Positions 19,616 to 29,946 of a stretch of 64,000 nt of DNA are shown here, piece after piece. The DNA lies in assembly GCA_026986375.1 (NCBI GenBank), contig JALSOQ010000013.1, forward strand, positions 1-64,000, read 5' to 3'. A model generated the notes under the pieces. That model ran no database searches. It was not told the origin of the DNA and saw only the letters and a program-made list of their open reading frames with translations. How positions within the stretch are numbered: position 1 is the stretch's first letter; the number at the start of each line of letters is the position of its first letter. The translations under genes and the position numbers were made by a program. This DNA comes from Archaeoglobaceae archaeon (GTDB lineage Archaea > Halobacteriota > Archaeoglobi > Archaeoglobales > Archaeoglobaceae).

Positions 19616-20020
19616 TTAAACCTTACGCCCGACAATTCTCTTTGCATTCAGCTTTCCGAGCTTGGAAGTCCCGTTTACCTCTATTACCTCCTCCGCCTCG
19701 ACTACGCCGATGACCGAACCGCTCGAAATTCTTACATTTTTGGCCTTTACGAAACGACCGACACAGAAATCCTGTATCAAGACGTCTTCGCTCGCGATTA
19801 TCGATTTGAACTTAGTGTATGCCCCTACCACGGCCCTTCTGCAAATTATATCCCCTTCGACGACGCAACCCTTTGCAAGATAAACCTCATCCGCTTCCAC
19901 GTTCCCCCAGAAGTTCGTGAACATTCCCGCGATTACTCTACCTTCAAACCTCAGATGCCTCGTAACCACCCCGTCCCTCCTTATGAGGAGAACTTTTTTA
20001 GCTCTATCAACTTTGAACAT
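19616..20020 (-). CDS. Bactofilin-like / polymer-forming beta-helix protein
   Basis: This 134-residue protein is a run of short strand repeats typical of a right-handed beta-helix: VIAGMFTNFWGNVEADEVYLAKG, VVEGDIICRRAVVGAYT, IIASEDVLIQDFCVGRFVKAKN, VRISSGSVIGVVEAEEVIEVNG. This resembles the polymer-forming cytoskeletal (bactofilin) family. The frame is open 36 codons upstream, but ATG at 20020 follows an AAAGGGGGT ribosome site and avoids a long overlap with the PUA gene. It is last in an operon with the PUA protein and the cis-prenyltransferase-like gene. A second, longer member is at 29131. Confidence 0.7.
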   Translation of the reverse strand: MFKVDRAKKVLLIRRDGVVTRHLRFEGRVIAGMFTNFWGNVEADEVYLAKGCVVEGDIICRRAVVGAYTKFKSIIASEDVLIQDFCVGRFVKAKNVRISSGSVIGVVEAEEVIEVNGTSKLGKLNAKRIVGRKV

Positions 20021-20486
20021 GTTTTCCGACCCCCTTTCTAACGGAGACCGCCACGCCTCTGTTGAATTCGAGCATTTCCTTGCCCGAGAGAACGGCCCTT
20101 CCAGTTGCGAGCAGATTATCCTCTTCATCCACGACCAGGACTTCGTCGTTCGCTCTTATTTTCGGATCGACGTCCACGACATGCTTGGCAAATACGTTTC
20201 CTCCTTTGACAATGAATTTCGCCACATCGTTTAGCACTACTACTCTAAGCTTCGGATACTCGAAAGTTCTGTGCAACCTTCTCGCACCTTCGATGCTCAA
20301 CGTAAACCATCCTGAATCCGCTTTAAGAGTTGCAATCCTGACTCCCCTATCCTTTATCTGCCTTATCCTGCCCGTCGTGGGTGAGAGGACAAATTTGCAC
20401 GTGTCGGGAAATAGTGCTCTTCCCGCTCCACTGCCGAACTGGTAGTCCGCTATGACCCTAACCAACCTGAGCATCCTATCTTCCAT
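20007..20486 (-). CDS. Stand-alone PUA-domain protein
   Basis: This 159-residue protein begins MLRLVRVIADYQFGSGAGRALFP, the signature of small archaeal PUA proteins related to the C-terminal part of archaeosine tRNA-guanine transglycosylase. The PUA fold follows: VVVLNDVAKFIVKGGNVFAKHVVDVDPKIRANDEVLVVD then LLATGRAVLSGKEML. It should bind structured RNA; a catalytic domain is absent. The start is ATG 20486 or Met5 at 20474; the latter matches the family. It overlaps the upstream gene by 11 bases and the downstream gene by 14. Confidence 0.82.
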   Translation of the reverse strand: MEDRMLRLVRVIADYQFGSGAGRALFPDTCKFVLSPTTGRIRQIKDRGVRIATLKADSGWFTLSIEGARRLHRTFEYPKLRVVVLNDVAKFIVKGGNVFAKHVVDVDPKIRANDEVLVVDEEDNLLATGRAVLSGKEMLEFNRGVAVSVRKGVGKHVQS

Positions 20487-21009
20487 ACCTCCTCTCCCTC
20501 CGCTGGAAATCCCTCAAACACCTCAAGAAGTCAACGTATCTGAAGTTCCTCCAGTCGATGTCTATGAAGAACAGTTCGCTGTATATACTCTGCCATATCA
20601 GAAATTCGGGTATTTCGCTTCCCGCTTTGACTATTAAATCTGGAGGATTTTTTACCTTGAGATACTTTTCCACCTCGCTTTCGCTAACATCTTCCGGCTC
20701 CATTTTACCCCTAACAACAAGCCTCGCAATCTCCCTAACCGCATCCGCAATCTCCTCTCTTCCCTCATATCCCTCTATCATGTTCAACTTCAGCCTTCCG
20801 AAATCTTTGGATTCCACCCTTCTCTTTCTCCCCTTAAAGCACACCGTAACTTCTTCCAATCCAACTCTCTCGCACCATTTCAAAAATTTGTTCAAGCCGT
20901 TCCTGATGAAATCTTCGTCCGCAACTACCATTATATGCTTAGGAATCTTTCTGGATAAAATATCCTTTTCGAGTTTTCTTTCGTAGAGTTTTCTTATAAA
21001 ATGCATCAT
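20476..21009 (-). CDS. Divergent, short cis-prenyltransferase-like protein (UppS/NgBR-like)
   Basis: At 177 residues it is well below the usual ~230-280. The opening IPKHIMVVADEDFIRNG aligns with the family's IPKHVAxIMDGNRRWA. An Asp is kept, but the Gly-Asn-Arg is lost. The C-terminal part follows the canonical order PDLIVKAGSEIPEFLIWQSIYSELFF then DFQRRERRYGR, with Arg to Lys and RLSN to IPE changes, and ends in an RxG motif. It may be an accessory subunit like NgBR/Nus1 or an enzyme with altered specificity in dolichol-type lipid synthesis. It is divergent from the DUF92 gene and leads the PUA/bactofilin operon. Confidence 0.78.
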   Translation of the reverse strand: MMHFIRKLYERKLEKDILSRKIPKHIMVVADEDFIRNGLNKFLKWCERVGLEEVTVCFKGRKRRVESKDFGRLKLNMIEGYEGREEIADAVREIARLVVRGKMEPEDVSESEVEKYLKVKNPPDLIVKAGSEIPEFLIWQSIYSELFFIDIDWRNFRYVDFLRCLRDFQRRERRYGR

Positions 21010-21046
21010 CGATACGAATGTTTAAAAAACGACCTAATTAAACGTT
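21010..21046. promoter_or_regulatory. Overlapping divergent promoters
   Basis: Only 37 bases separate the cis-prenyltransferase-like gene (minus) from the DUF92 gene (plus). TTTAATTA on the minus strand (about 21033-21040) is about 27 bases from the ATG at 21009. TTTAAAAAAC on the plus strand (about 21019-21028) is about 25-30 bases from the DUF92 start. The two TATA elements interleave, so transcription in the two directions could compete. Confidence 0.45.
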
Positions 21047-22195
21047 GTGCCAATGTTCGAGATTCCGGCAATAGCTCTGCTTTCGATATTCATAAAACCG
21101 ATCTATTTAGTTCCCGTTACACTCGCCTTGAGCCTTCTCGCAAGAGATAGGGTGCTGAAAGAGGTATCCCTTCTGTCCTCTCTACTCTTGGCCTTCACTT
21201 ATCTTGGTTTATCTGAACCTATCGTTTCGGCGTCTATGTTTGTTCTGCTTGGCCATCGTTTTAGGAAAAATACGATTTGGAACGTTTTCGTTTACACTAT
21301 TTTAGGATTCGCGTTCTTCATTCTGTACGATCGCTTTCATCACTTAAACTGCAACCTCGAATACCTCCTATTTCTCTCTCTCATGGGTGGATTGACCGCA
21401 TCGCTCGTAGAGTGCGTTAACGGAAGAGAGCTCGTAATACTGCTCGCCATCGCTACGGTCTATACGGTGTTTCACATCTACGCGATAAACGTCTCTCTAA
21501 TACAGCTCGCGACCGCTTTTGCAATATCGTTTATCTTAAGCATGATCGCGACCAAAGCCGGTGTCGCGGACGATAGCGGACTACTCAGCGCTACGCTCAT
21601 TGGAACTCTGACGATAGTTTTCTCCGACATAAGATTCTTCATCATCCTGTTGCTTTTCTACGCTATAGGCTCTGGAGTGACGAAGTTCAAGTATGCCGTA
21701 AAGCTCGAAAGGGGAATCGCGGAGCAGGCCGGGGGGGCGAGGGGATATGAAAATGTCTTCAGCAACAGCCTCCCCGCTCTGTTCTTCGTCATGAACTACG
21801 GTGCGTTTAAATATGAATTACTCAAGGTAGCGTTCGTCGCAAGCGTTGCGTGTGCGTTAGGAGATACGATGGCGAGCGAGGTGGGGAAGACTGCGGAAAA
21901 GGTATACCTTATAACGAACCTAAAAAGGGTAAGGCCGGGGGAGAGCGGAGGAATATCGCTGATAGGTGAAGTTTCCGCACTGGCCGGATGTTTCATAGTT
22001 TCGTTCTCCGCACTCTTAATGGGTATTCTGGACTTCTATCAATCCGTAATAGCTCTAATATCTGGATTTTTGGGTGTTCACGTGGACAGCCTCTTGGGTG
22101 CGACGTTGGAAAAAAAAGGTGTTCTGAACAACGCCGGAGTCAACTTCCTCGCGACGTTCAGTGCTGGAATTTTCAGCTATCTCCTCCTTAGGTAG
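21047..22195 (+). CDS. DUF92 family membrane protein (VTE6-like isoprenoid phosphate kinase candidate)
   Basis: This 382-residue protein has about ten membrane segments. The DUF92/TIGR00297 signature is clear in the C-terminal half: ATKAGVADDSGLLSATLIGT, LFYAIGSGVTKFKY, EQAGGARGYENVFSNSLPAL, ALGDTMASEVGK and RPGESGGISLIGE. Plant VTE6, a phytyl-phosphate kinase, belongs to this family, so a kinase acting on an isoprenyl phosphate is a reasonable inference. The divergent cis-prenyltransferase-like neighbour supports that. The start is GTG at 21047 or ATG at 21053. The 3' end overlaps the convergent Lon-like protease by 19 bases. Confidence 0.85.
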   Translation: MPMFEIPAIALLSIFIKPIYLVPVTLALSLLARDRVLKEVSLLSSLLLAFTYLGLSEPIVSASMFVLLGHRFRKNTIWNVFVYTILGFAFFILYDRFHHLNCNLEYLLFLSLMGGLTASLVECVNGRELVILLAIATVYTVFHIYAINVSLIQLATAFAISFILSMIATKAGVADDSGLLSATLIGTLTIVFSDIRFFIILLLFYAIGSGVTKFKYAVKLERGIAEQAGGARGYENVFSNSLPALFFVMNYGAFKYELLKVAFVASVACALGDTMASEVGKTAEKVYLITNLKRVRPGESGGISLIGEVSALAGCFIVSFSALLMGILDFYQSVIALISGFLGVHVDSLLGATLEKKGVLNNAGVNFLATFSAGIFSYLLLR

Positions 22196-23988
22196 AAAGC
22201 TACAGCCAAAGCTGTTATCGCCAGAACCGTGCAGAATCCGGGAATTTCGATGTTGGATATTCTGTGCAGGTGATGATACGATACTTCCTCACTTTCGGGA
22301 GTTATGGGTGGAGATTCGAGTTTGACAAGTTCCTTTTCTGGATAGGCCTTTGCAACTACCACTATAAGCTTCGCGAGCCTTTCGGCGAGTTTGTAGTATG
22401 ATATGGCTATCGCCACGTCTTTCTGCGTTTCGGCGAATTCGTAATATGCTATGGGTAGAATGGGAGTCACTATCTTTTCCGCCTCCGCAATCGATGTCAT
22501 GGCGGACTTTTTGGCGGATTCGAGCTTGTCCTTCAGCATATCTTCGGTGACGCCTATGAACTCTATCGAAAGGCTCGCCTTTGTTATGGCGTCTATGCAC
22601 GTTATAGCCGAGCCAGCGTAGAATCCCATGTCGAACTGCCTTCTTGCAAGGTCGACCGTCTCTTCAGCCTTACTTATGAGGTTTGGGTATCCCCCTATAG
22701 ATCTCGCATAGACTATCAAAGACTCCGCCTCCCTGAAGTAGAATTCAGCTCTCTTCTTAAGCTCTTTTTCGTTTATCGGTATGTCCTCCTTTATAGTCTT
22801 TAGCAGAGAAAGCCACACCTGAGCGCTTTCTATCCTTTCCTTCGCGAGAGCCAGATAGTTCAAGGCGGTGTCGAAGTCCCCGCACGTCTTAGCATTGTAG
22901 AGATAGTTCTCAGCCCATGCGATTCTCTCCTCCGCCGCACCTACTATCTGAAATGATTCGATACCAAGCTTTCTCAAACTCTTTAAGTAATCGGTCATTT
23001 CGTCTATCTCCTTGCTGACGTTGTCGAACTCCTTGCTCAGATCGTTGTAGTCGTTTATCTTATTTCTGTAGTAGAGATACCTCAGCTCTATCGCCGCTTG
23101 GAAGTATTTGCACGTGGCAGTGTAGTAGTATCCTTTATCAAAGTATTCGTCCCCTTCCTTTATCAGCTGAATAGCTCTGTGTGGTTCGGTGAATTGCTCG
23201 ACTTCCTTGAGCAGATTCATAGTTCTCTTCTTCATATTTATTGCGAGGGTTTTTAGGAGGTCGGAGTATTTCGACAGGTTTATCTTGGGTTTTGGAGTCT
23301 TTATGGTGTAACCCGTATAATACCACAGCGCCTGATCTATCGTGCTGACCTCTATGACCTTAACTCCTAGCTTCTTACCCATTTCTACAACATCCACCGG
23401 AACGACCTTCGTCGTTATGATCAGGAACGGACCTTCCTTCTTCTCCACTCTCTCTTGGACGTATACCACTCTCTGTCCTTTCGGAATTAGGAATATCTTA
23501 GCTCCGGCTTTTGCAGCAGCTTCAAGCTTGTAGGGTATTCCTCCGACGGGCCCGATGAATCCGTCGGGATATATCATTCCCGTCATGAACACGTCCTTTC
23601 TGAGGGTCAAATTCTTCAGAGCGGCGATAGTCGCGATCGTCATGACTGCTCCTGCCGATGGTCCTCCGACTATGGGTGCATCCGCCCTTATCTCGTAGAA
23701 GAAGTCGTGCTTCGTGAAATCTACTCCCAACAAGTCGCAGGCAGTTAAAGCGGCGAGCTGAGCACTACCCTGCATGTCTATTTCGGTGTAAGGTATAGTG
23801 GATACGAAGACCTTTCCAGTTCCCGGAGTTACGATTACCGTTATGTTTATAACCGCTCCTTCGGGTTTTTCTCCCGTTTTAACAGCCACAGCCTTTATAT
23901 TCACTATCTTAGCGTTCACGAATTCTCCGTTTGCGGGATAGAGGGAGAGCAGTAGAATTGCTATCAGAAGTAAGCCGATCGACCGCAT
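22177..23988 (-). CDS. Secreted, membrane-anchored Lon-like (S16) serine protease
   Basis: This 603-residue protein has an N-terminal signal peptide (about 1-21, LLLIAILLLSLYPANG). A Lon proteolytic domain follows with catalytic Ser111 in VGGPSAGAVMTIA and Lys154 in GGIPYKLEAAAKAGA. No AAA+ domain is present. Residues about 245-565 are long helices, probably coiled-coil or TPR-like. The C-terminus IEIPGFCTVLAITALAVAFYLRRR is a PGF-like motif, a transmembrane helix and an Arg tail. That resembles PGF-CTERM archaeosortase signals but could be a plain anchor. The protease would act outside the membrane on surface or exported proteins. It converges on DUF92. Confidence 0.88.
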   Translation of the reverse strand: MRSIGLLLIAILLLSLYPANGEFVNAKIVNIKAVAVKTGEKPEGAVINITVIVTPGTGKVFVSTIPYTEIDMQGSAQLAALTACDLLGVDFTKHDFFYEIRADAPIVGGPSAGAVMTIATIAALKNLTLRKDVFMTGMIYPDGFIGPVGGIPYKLEAAAKAGAKIFLIPKGQRVVYVQERVEKKEGPFLIITTKVVPVDVVEMGKKLGVKVIEVSTIDQALWYYTGYTIKTPKPKINLSKYSDLLKTLAINMKKRTMNLLKEVEQFTEPHRAIQLIKEGDEYFDKGYYYTATCKYFQAAIELRYLYYRNKINDYNDLSKEFDNVSKEIDEMTDYLKSLRKLGIESFQIVGAAEERIAWAENYLYNAKTCGDFDTALNYLALAKERIESAQVWLSLLKTIKEDIPINEKELKKRAEFYFREAESLIVYARSIGGYPNLISKAEETVDLARRQFDMGFYAGSAITCIDAITKASLSIEFIGVTEDMLKDKLESAKKSAMTSIAEAEKIVTPILPIAYYEFAETQKDVAIAISYYKLAERLAKLIVVVAKAYPEKELVKLESPPITPESEEVSYHHLHRISNIEIPGFCTVLAITALAVAFYLRRR

Positions 23989-28694: not shown

Positions 28695-29074
28695 TTATAA
28701 ATACCTTCTCTTTAAGTCTTCTCTAACTTCTTCTAAACTTTTGCCTTTAAGTAAATCCTCTACAGCCCGAGTATCCAAAGCCAAGTATTCGTTAGTTTTT
28801 AATCCATAAACGATCATAGCCTTATCGTTAGTTCAAATAGGAATGTTAAGCTTTAAGGCTAAAGCTATGAAAGGCCAACCATCGATGTCAAATTTTTCAG
28901 CTAACTTTTTAGCTGATTCGACGATTTCAGCATTCTCTTCAGTATTCTATGCCTATGCTTATCGACTTCTTCCAGCGTGAAGTAAGGAGCATACAACTCC
29001 AAAAATTCGGAGAAAAACATCCATCGCACTCTTCCATCCTTGAGTATTTTGTTAGTATCAACGACCAATTTCAT
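28695..29074 (-). pseudogene. Second PIN toxin, frameshift plus in-frame TGA
   Basis: ATG at 29074 starts MKLVVDTNKILKDGRVRW and FFSEFLELYAPYFTLEEVDKH, then the frame shifts near HRILK. The next frame reads EENAEIVESAKKLAEKFDIDGWPFIALALKLNIPI-stop-TNDKAMIVYGLKTNEYLALDT and ends at 28695. The stop (TGA at 28835-28833) replaces the Trp of PIWTND seen in copy 1. The N-terminal half differs from copy 1 while the 3' end is nearly identical at DNA level. A strong CTATATATAAAAAG box lies at about 29104-29117. The gene is not functional as read. Confidence 0.72.
28753..28816. repeat. Toxin 3'-end repeat, copy 2
   Basis: Partner of 28032-28095 in direct orientation, 62 of 64 bases identical. Similarity drops sharply beyond both ends, and the N-terminal halves of the two toxins are unrelated at DNA level. 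Confidence 0.85.
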
Positions 29075-29130
29075 TCTCAATCCTCTGGCGAATGGATTTC
29101 TTTTTATATATAGCTACTCGAAGAATAATC

Positions 29131-29946
29131 CTAAGGAAATCTTAAATCTTCCGGTAATTCCACCTTGGGTTTTATCCAAACCCCGCTCCTTCCTATTATC
29201 GATCCTTCGACGACGCACCTTTCTTCCATGAAAACCTTATCCGCCCTTATCTGCCCGAGCACCGTGCTACCTCTAACCAGATAGACCTCCTTACCCTCCA
29301 CGGCCCCGTGAACCCTGCTCGAATCTATTATTACGATTTCACCTTTGACGCTACCGTAAAGCTCAGCTCTTTCCACTAAAACGCCCTTCGCCTTCACGTT
29401 CCCCAAAACCCTGCTCTCCGAAATGTAAACGTCTCTGTCGGTTTTTATCGTGTCTATGTTCATCACGGTGTTCTCGGGCACTTCGAGCGGAGAAACGAAC
29501 TCCTCCACTTCGAAGAGCTTCTCAGCTTCCTCAAGCTTCCCCAACCTGAGCAGTTCGAGGAGGTAGAGGAATATGAACATCACAATCGGCATCGGATCCT
29601 GAATCGTTATCAATCCCTTGGCTTCGAACCCGTTCTTAATCCTGACGTTCCTCCCTATCTCCAAATCCCCGAAGACCGTCAGCCTACCTTCTATAGCGGT
29701 GAATTCCCCTATGTAAGCGTCGCCTTTGCTTATGACGTTTCCCTTCACGTTGCACCAAGCTCCCAGCCTTACCTCTTCCCTTCCGAAGACATCCCCCTCT
29801 ATTTTGGTCTTTTCACCCACTACGACTTTCCTCGCCATTATACCGTAACCTATTTCGCTGTTCGCACCGATTAGGGCGTCTCCTTCGACGATTAAATTCC
29901 TCTCCTCGAACTTCGTGTTCGCCGGTATCACCAACCTCTCCAGCAT
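29131..29946 (-). CDS. Bactofilin-like beta-helix protein with a central hydrophobic insert
   Basis: This 271-residue protein has two runs of short beta-strand repeats (about 15-115 and 155-265) of the polymer-forming/acyltransferase-like beta-helix type. Examples are LIVEGDALIGANSEIGYGIMARKVVVG, VEGKEVYLVRGSTVLGQIRADKV and VVEGSIIGRSGVWI. Between them is PIVMFIFLYLLELLRLG, long and hydrophobic enough to contact a membrane, then a helical EEAEKLFEVEEF. It starts one base after the apgM stop, so it is the downstream gene of that operon. Annotation as an acyltransferase by hexapeptide similarity would be misleading; no catalytic His is obvious. Confidence 0.7.
   Translation of the reverse strand: MLERLVIPANTKFEERNLIVEGDALIGANSEIGYGIMARKVVVGEKTKIEGDVFGREEVRLGAWCNVKGNVISKGDAYIGEFTAIEGRLTVFGDLEIGRNVRIKNGFEAKGLITIQDPMPIVMFIFLYLLELLRLGKLEEAEKLFEVEEFVSPLEVPENTVMNIDTIKTDRDVYISESRVLGNVKAKGVLVERAELYGSVKGEIVIIDSSRVHGAVEGKEVYLVRGSTVLGQIRADKVFMEERCVVEGSIIGRSGVWIKPKVELPEDLRFP

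Follow-up and report, generated by a model that had tools for sequence, protein, structure and literature searches.

We propose that a short cis-prenyltransferase (cPT)-like protein from an Archaeoglobaceae genome is a non-catalytic subunit of a heteromeric cPT, resembling NgBR/Nus1 in role, and that its partner is a full-length cPT encoded elsewhere in the same genome. We put the probability of this reading at roughly 0.86. It builds on a split of motifs between the two chains, their co-occurrence across genomes, the predicted fold of the short chain, the linkage of its gene and the co-absence of the pair with AglB, all observed here; from these we infer complex formation, as well as the reaction and the product of the pair.

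The window, that is the whole stretch of 64,000 nucleotides that was analysed, comes from contig 13 of a genome of 1.46 Mb that is 99.94% complete. The short gene, whose nearest named relatives are found in Archaeoglobaceae and Archaeoglobales, lies back to back with a gene of the DUF92 family. The features needed for the argument are the following:

20476..21009, minus strand: short cPT-fold protein of 177 amino acids (PF01255 match, structural model, motif losses and terminal RxG)
21010..21052, no strand: putative divergent promoter region common to both genes (read from the sequence)
21021-21029: TATA-like block TTTAAAAAA, which would serve the DUF92 direction (read from the sequence)
21035-21042: TATA-like block TAATTAAA, reading TTTAATTA on the minus strand, which would serve the short gene (read from the sequence)
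21053..22195, plus strand: DUF92/TIGR00297 integral membrane protein (PF01940, TIGR00297, structural model; start codon chosen by genus alignment)
Contig 10 of the same genome, about 29004-29765: full-length cPT (PF01255 and motifs)

A sequence-only reading of the window had assigned the two genes a shared promoter region of 37 bases. The divergent pairing is real, but a gap of 37 bases results only if the DUF92 protein begins at a GTG at 21047 (382 amino acids). Because four other members of the genus share an in-frame ATG six bases downstream (21053 here) as the conserved DUF92 start, a protein of 380 amino acids and a gap of 43 bases are more likely. Each TATA-like block is positioned about 25-33 bases from the start codon of its own gene, and similar AT blocks appear in four other genus members. 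Judging from sequence, these AT-rich intergenic blocks probably function as promoter elements.

Further genes flank the pair on the minus strand. At 20007-20486, overlapping the short gene by 11 bases, lies a gene for a stand-alone TGT_C2 plus PUA protein of 159 amino acids whose resemblance to the C terminus of archaeosine synthase ArcS falls below the cut-off; its homologues occur in 34 of 80 named loci, mostly in Archaeoglobi and also in L155, L166 and L170. A bactofilin-like protein (19616-20128; PF04519, 1.4e-7; homologues in 27 of 80 named loci) has a listed start that strongly overlaps the upstream gene and was probably placed too far upstream. On the other side, a gene at 22177-23988 meets the DUF92 gene tail to tail with an overlap of 19 bases and encodes a Lon (S16) protease domain with a weak PGF-CTERM-like end (homologues in 22 of 80 named loci).

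Motifs and fold of the short and long chains

Only the second half of the cPT family profile is matched by the short protein: residues 67-176 align with positions 109-219 of PF01255 (E 2.1e-23), and the C terminus reads RRYGR. The sequence-only reading had described just such a retained C-terminal half with a terminal RxG, together with a change of MDGNR to ADEDF and of RLSN to IPE, and the alignment with the full-length cPT of the same genome bears it out. HVAIIMDGNRR of the full-length protein aligns with HIMVVADEDF, and GGEQRLSNFL aligns with G-SEIPEFL, which is two residues shorter. The short protein has no FSTEN block. Between the starts of YAFSTEN and AYGGR, 23 of 78 residues are left, and the tunnel region is ~55 residues shorter. 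An active homodimeric UppS combines the aspartate of MDGNR and the asparagine of RLSN with RxG in one chain; in the short protein we found ADEDF and IPEF instead. Going by these losses, the short protein does not function as an enzyme by itself.

The part that is left is well conserved. Across 60 aligned short proteins, 18 of the 20 invariant positions come after residue 65, and the chain ends in RxRRxG. The AlphaFold2 model of the short protein (pLDDT 86) has the cPT fold and is closest to human DHDDS, human NgBR and bacterial UppS, which are tied at Z about 13.

The full-length cPT that we looked for in the light of the earlier reading is present: apart from the short gene, contig 10 holds the only PF01255 match of the genome (E 9.0e-77). 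This protein carries MDGNR, FSTEN and RLSN and ends in RSQKYK, without RxG. We observed the same reciprocal pattern across the proteins that were compared, which were classed as short or long by the higher-scoring of two phmmer queries and not by motif, with the RxG region contributing to the score. At the aligned columns, D, G and N of MDGNR and N of RLSN are found in all 58 distinct long proteins and RxG in none of them, whereas DGNR occurs in none of the 117 distinct short proteins, which do not keep the FSTEN and RLSN columns and end in RxG (115) or KxG (2); rows were dropped only if identical, so near-copies of one organism remain in both counts. A tblastn match without a short open reading frame (L110) was excluded. 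One long protein (L061) contains RxG by regular expression, inside a C-terminal extension, and in two of five genus members (G003 and G004) the long protein has RRFG or RRYG close to the C terminus, shifted by two residues from the aligned columns. In bacterial single-chain UppS controls, the aspartate and RxG sit in the same chain in nine of nine. The reciprocal split of catalytic motifs and RxG marks a heteromeric cPT of the NgBR/DHDDS type, of which the short protein is predicted to be the non-catalytic, RxG-donating subunit.

In such an enzyme, the long chain would supply MDGNR, FSTEN, RLSN and the product tunnel, and the short chain would dimerise through its conserved C-terminal half. 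The RxG tail of the short chain would be placed in the partner's active site and help to bind IPP and Mg. Starting from an allylic diphosphate, the two chains would together build the polyprenyl diphosphate on which glycans are carried for AglB.

Occurrence and phylogeny of the two chains

Across 119 genomes of the phylum that are at least 90% complete, PF01255 matches number at least two in 117 and none in two, and no genome has exactly one. All 29 single-contig genomes among the matches listed likewise have at least two, the second match of each genome being inspected only among the matches listed. Lone genes come from drafts: a short match for which no long match was found in G030 (95% complete, 80 contigs), a short match only in G108 (73% complete), and a long match only in G060 and G085 (drafts, 95% and 98% complete) and in G032 (72% complete). 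The single-gene genomes from other searches are all fragmented drafts, and the single-gene drafts likely owe to assembly gaps. Within the sequence set, 12 of 55 genomes with a short sequence lack a long sequence in the set. Long and short genes lie within 1 kb of each other in 15 of 79 named loci, always convergent, and in 12 of these 15 a DUF92 gene is also there.

Individual genomes depart from this pattern in their own ways. A genome that is 97% complete has its long cPT gene only as fragments with stop codons (G064:C103:1350-2005) and keeps the short gene along with a paralogue of the size of Methanosarcina mazei MM_0014. A second full-length catalytic cPT is encoded on a replicon of 163,915 bases (G059:C2:17193-17864; L081). 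In another genome of the same family, the short gene has one in-frame TAG (G100:C1:2055467-2056006), reflecting either pyrrolysine read-through or a broken gene.

In an unrooted maximum-likelihood tree of archaeal sequences and nine bacterial UppS, with no eukaryotic sequence (121 of 184 rows, the others removed by length or by thinning), a 100/100 branch sets off all 56 short rows, and a 100/97 branch does the same for all 56 long rows. The nine UppS, an outgroup from plasmid-collection records whose own grouping is weak (56/28), belong to neither group. The short protein thus does not fall among the active homodimeric UppS, the placement that would speak against an accessory subunit. Because the short and the long group both span the phylum, the split between them looks older than the classes of the phylum, as far as these sequences tell. 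The tree also bears on the idea that the short gene is a decaying uppS duplicate. Its lost catalytic motifs would fit such decay, but the gene is kept across the phylum with invariant residues and on its own side of the 100/100 branch, and we consider decay extremely improbable.

In sequence, the short profile matches bacterial UppS at 6e-37 and human NUS1 at 5e-12, and is thus nearer to UppS. Because of this, and because NgBR, DHDDS and UppS are tied in structure, the likeness of the short protein to NgBR is one of role, not of demonstrated descent.

Genomes devoid of cPT link the pair to a cellular process. Four genomes of one family (two 91% and two 84-86% complete) have no PF01255 match. 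The N-glycosylation transferase AglB (PF02516) is absent from all four and present in the other 14 of the 18 genomes tested. This joint absence suggests that the short and long chains are tied to N-glycosylation.

The DUF92 neighbour

The short gene and a DUF92 gene lie at most 1.1 kb apart in 47 of the 57 genomes that have both, the window's own included; of the other ten genomes, five have them on the same contig but distant from each other, and five have them on separate contigs, which in some cases at least may reflect broken assemblies. A lack of conserved linkage, which would count against the earlier reading, is not what we obtained. Of 79 named loci of the short gene, 61 also contain DUF92, always divergent from it and with a median gap of 37 bases as computed from mechanical start codons. 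These contigs range from Archaeoglobi to Methanoperedens, Methanocellales, Methanothrix, Argoarchaeum and Haloarcula; in Methanolobus loci, the flanks contain no DUF92. In one Archaeoglobales draft, DUF92 appears as two adjacent open reading frames of 201 and 195 amino acids (L100:1901-3090), by frameshift or as a split gene.

A link of DUF92 to uppS is not new. In 2015, uppS was described as the single conserved context of the arCOG02245/COG1836/DUF92 family (PMC5898192). That account of the family names the neighbour simply uppS (HVO_2318), whereas here the neighbour is a non-catalytic-type gene, and this is what is new. In the open-access literature, most subscription journals being outside its scope, we did not find it stated that the DUF92-linked gene is an accessory subunit.

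Given this linkage, one might suppose that the short protein works by itself, as a reduced cPT or as a prenyl-phosphate binder in a DUF92 salvage route independent of the long cPT. Its gene is indeed close to DUF92 in those 47 of 57 genomes and has the long gene within its flanks in only 15 of 79 named loci, and in draft G030 the long gene was not found. Against this, the catalytic motifs are all gone and the tunnel region is shortened, one of the best conserved parts is RxG, which has a use only at an active site, none of the 119 genomes has a single PF01255 match, and DUF92 occurs without the short protein. We regard this arrangement as very unlikely. The prenyl-phosphate salvage pair that had been suggested from sequence is plausible for DUF92 alone and not for the pair, since the short protein has no catalytic motifs and DUF92 occurs without any cPT. 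The accessory subunit that had been suggested alongside it is well supported: a complementary full-length cPT exists, the two groups separate and the DUF92 linkage is conserved.

The DUF92 gene itself was placed correctly by the sequence-only reading. Its product matches PF01940 (192 bits against a cut-off of 27.5; E 1.5e-56) and TIGR00297 (236.9 bits against a cut-off of 205.85), and Pfam finds nothing else in it; among 48 DUF92 proteins, Pfam finds five other families, each in one or two members and with weak scores. D273, E278 and D347 are invariant in the 48 proteins. A GDG motif in the N-terminal half occurs in 12 of them (among L123-L157; 11 Methanoperedens contigs and one uncultured archaeon) and is absent from the protein in the window. 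The best fold match of the DUF92 model (pLDDT 93) is the archaeal CDP-archaeol synthase 5guf (Z 7.1, rmsd 3.2, 117 residues aligned), at a Z in the ambiguous, chance-match range; 4q2g follows at Z 5.1. Foldseek against the PDB gave no match for the model at E 0.001, and when profiles of its two halves, built from shallow alignments, were compared with CarS and between the halves, the probabilities stayed below 3%.

PF01148 matches, found in 18 of 18 genomes, were considered as a dolichol kinase that would form a VTE5/VTE6-like pair with DUF92. This candidate was dropped, as the sequences inspected, those around 16 of the 18 matches, look by their motifs like CDP-archaeol synthase (CarS).

From family relations, we lean towards DUF92 being a CTP-dependent prenyl- or polyprenyl-phosphate kinase. 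The family has been reported to resemble cytidylyltransferases in HHpred (97.57%), with conserved metal-binding aspartates, and its conserved uppS neighbour led to the suggestion of an isoprenoid step that needs kinase activity (PMC5898192). Plant VTE6, connected to the family through COG1836 (PMC3223725, PMC9782597), converts phytyl phosphate to phytyl diphosphate (PMC8054155). A DUF92 kinase would return monophosphates to the diphosphate pool and would not be required for cPT.

DUF92 is kept in all four genomes without cPT and AglB (L090, L180, L181 and L183; genomes G045, G117, G118 and G054); the control Sulfolobus acidocaldarius has both cPT and AglB but lacks DUF92. DUF92 is therefore no obligate cPT partner, and it more likely serves a wider prenyl-phosphate pool than cPT alone. 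In G045, the DUF92 gene comes after a TATA-binding-protein-like open reading frame, as judged by eye.

Its retention in these four genomes would also agree with an enzyme whose substrate is geranylgeranyl phosphate or some other C20 prenyl phosphate, so that GGPP goes to membrane lipids and cPT, and not the polyprenyl phosphates of glycosylation. The formation of phytyl diphosphate from phytyl phosphate by plant VTE6 (PMC8054155) points the same way, but the published context of the family is uppS (PMC5898192), and the neighbour here is a cPT subunit gene, not an ether-lipid gene. We take such a C20 substrate to be a real possibility that falls somewhat short of even odds. A different idea is that DUF92 transports or flips the polyprenyl carrier, or anchors the cPT complex in the membrane as its third subunit, as an integral membrane protein beside the gene of a subunit without an apparent membrane segment might do. 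The N-terminal half gives weak fold matches to MATE-type transporters, but at Z about 5 to 5.7 these are within the background range; the HHpred link of the family to cytidylyltransferases with metal-binding aspartates (PMC5898192) and the presence of DUF92 without cPT likewise make either function unlikely.

A curious parallel to the archaeal cPT gene beside DUF92, possibly involving the same fold class, is seen in five of nine bacterial control loci (L189, L191, L193, L195 and L196). In these, the gene after uppS is annotated as phosphatidate cytidylyltransferase (cdsA), a CTP:lipid enzyme.

Relation to known heteromeric prenyltransferases

A broader and more doubtful proposal is that the division of cPT into a catalytic and an RxG-donating chain might go back to the ancestor of the whole phylum, have become fixed before the classes separated and be close to obligatory. 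DUF92, which may have a CdsA-like fold, and the RxG-subunit gene might then form a carrier-lipid module with one promoter region, so that polyprenyl diphosphate is made and recharged under joint control. If so, the archaeal heteromer would be an independent prokaryotic counterpart of NgBR/DHDDS.

The subunit reading has practical consequences as well. Short genes match the same Pfam family as uppS and are easily mistaken for a second copy of the enzyme; recognizing an RxG subunit would correct annotation across the phylum and tell experimenters to co-express two genes. As models of the human NgBR/DHDDS complex, the archaeal pairs would be small and probably heat-stable. That DUF92 dissociates from cPT and AglB alike narrows the roles that it may have.

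The closest precedent comes from the same phylum, where two cPT paralogues of M. mazei, MM_0618 and MM_1083, act together as a heteromeric cPT with C45-50 products (PMC8131916, citing Emi et al. 2019). A third paralogue, MM_0014, ends in TLGG and has no RxG (PMC8131916). A related genome of 4.2 Mb (G068) contains one MM_0014 homologue ending in TLGG, one long gene and one short gene; by elimination, MM_0618 and MM_1083 should thus be the long/short pair. The two systems differ in detail. The short protein has 177 amino acids in the window and 234 (from a TTG start) in G068, and the short gene in the window is paired with DUF92, whereas 9 kb around the short gene of G068 hold no convincing DUF92 match (best E 0.017 over 41 residues). 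We did not find an archaeal pair beyond that of M. mazei described in the open-access literature; subscription journals were mostly outside this scope, among them Emi et al. 2019, which could contain more on the subject.

In eukaryotes, DHDDS and NgBR/Nus1 combine a catalytic chain with a non-catalytic RxG chain, in plants as in humans (PMC13247534, PMC7839719). RxG is an end motif of cPTs that takes part in acceptor binding (PMC8131916, PMC7839719), and in plant heteromers it is present in the accessory chain and absent from the catalytic chain (PMC13247534). The motif split in archaea matches this logic. Human NgBR aligns with the model of the short protein over 163 residues (Z 13.3, rmsd 3.9), while the sequence relation of NgBR/Nus1 to the short protein of the window is weak (E 2.2e-4), with no sign of a specific sister relation. 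B. subtilis UppS shares the fold and is about 29-30% identical over the aligned part; unlike the short protein, bacterial homodimeric UppS keep catalytic motifs and RxG in one chain, as in all nine controls. With its kin, the short protein clearly extends the heteromeric kind of cPT from one species to a phylum.
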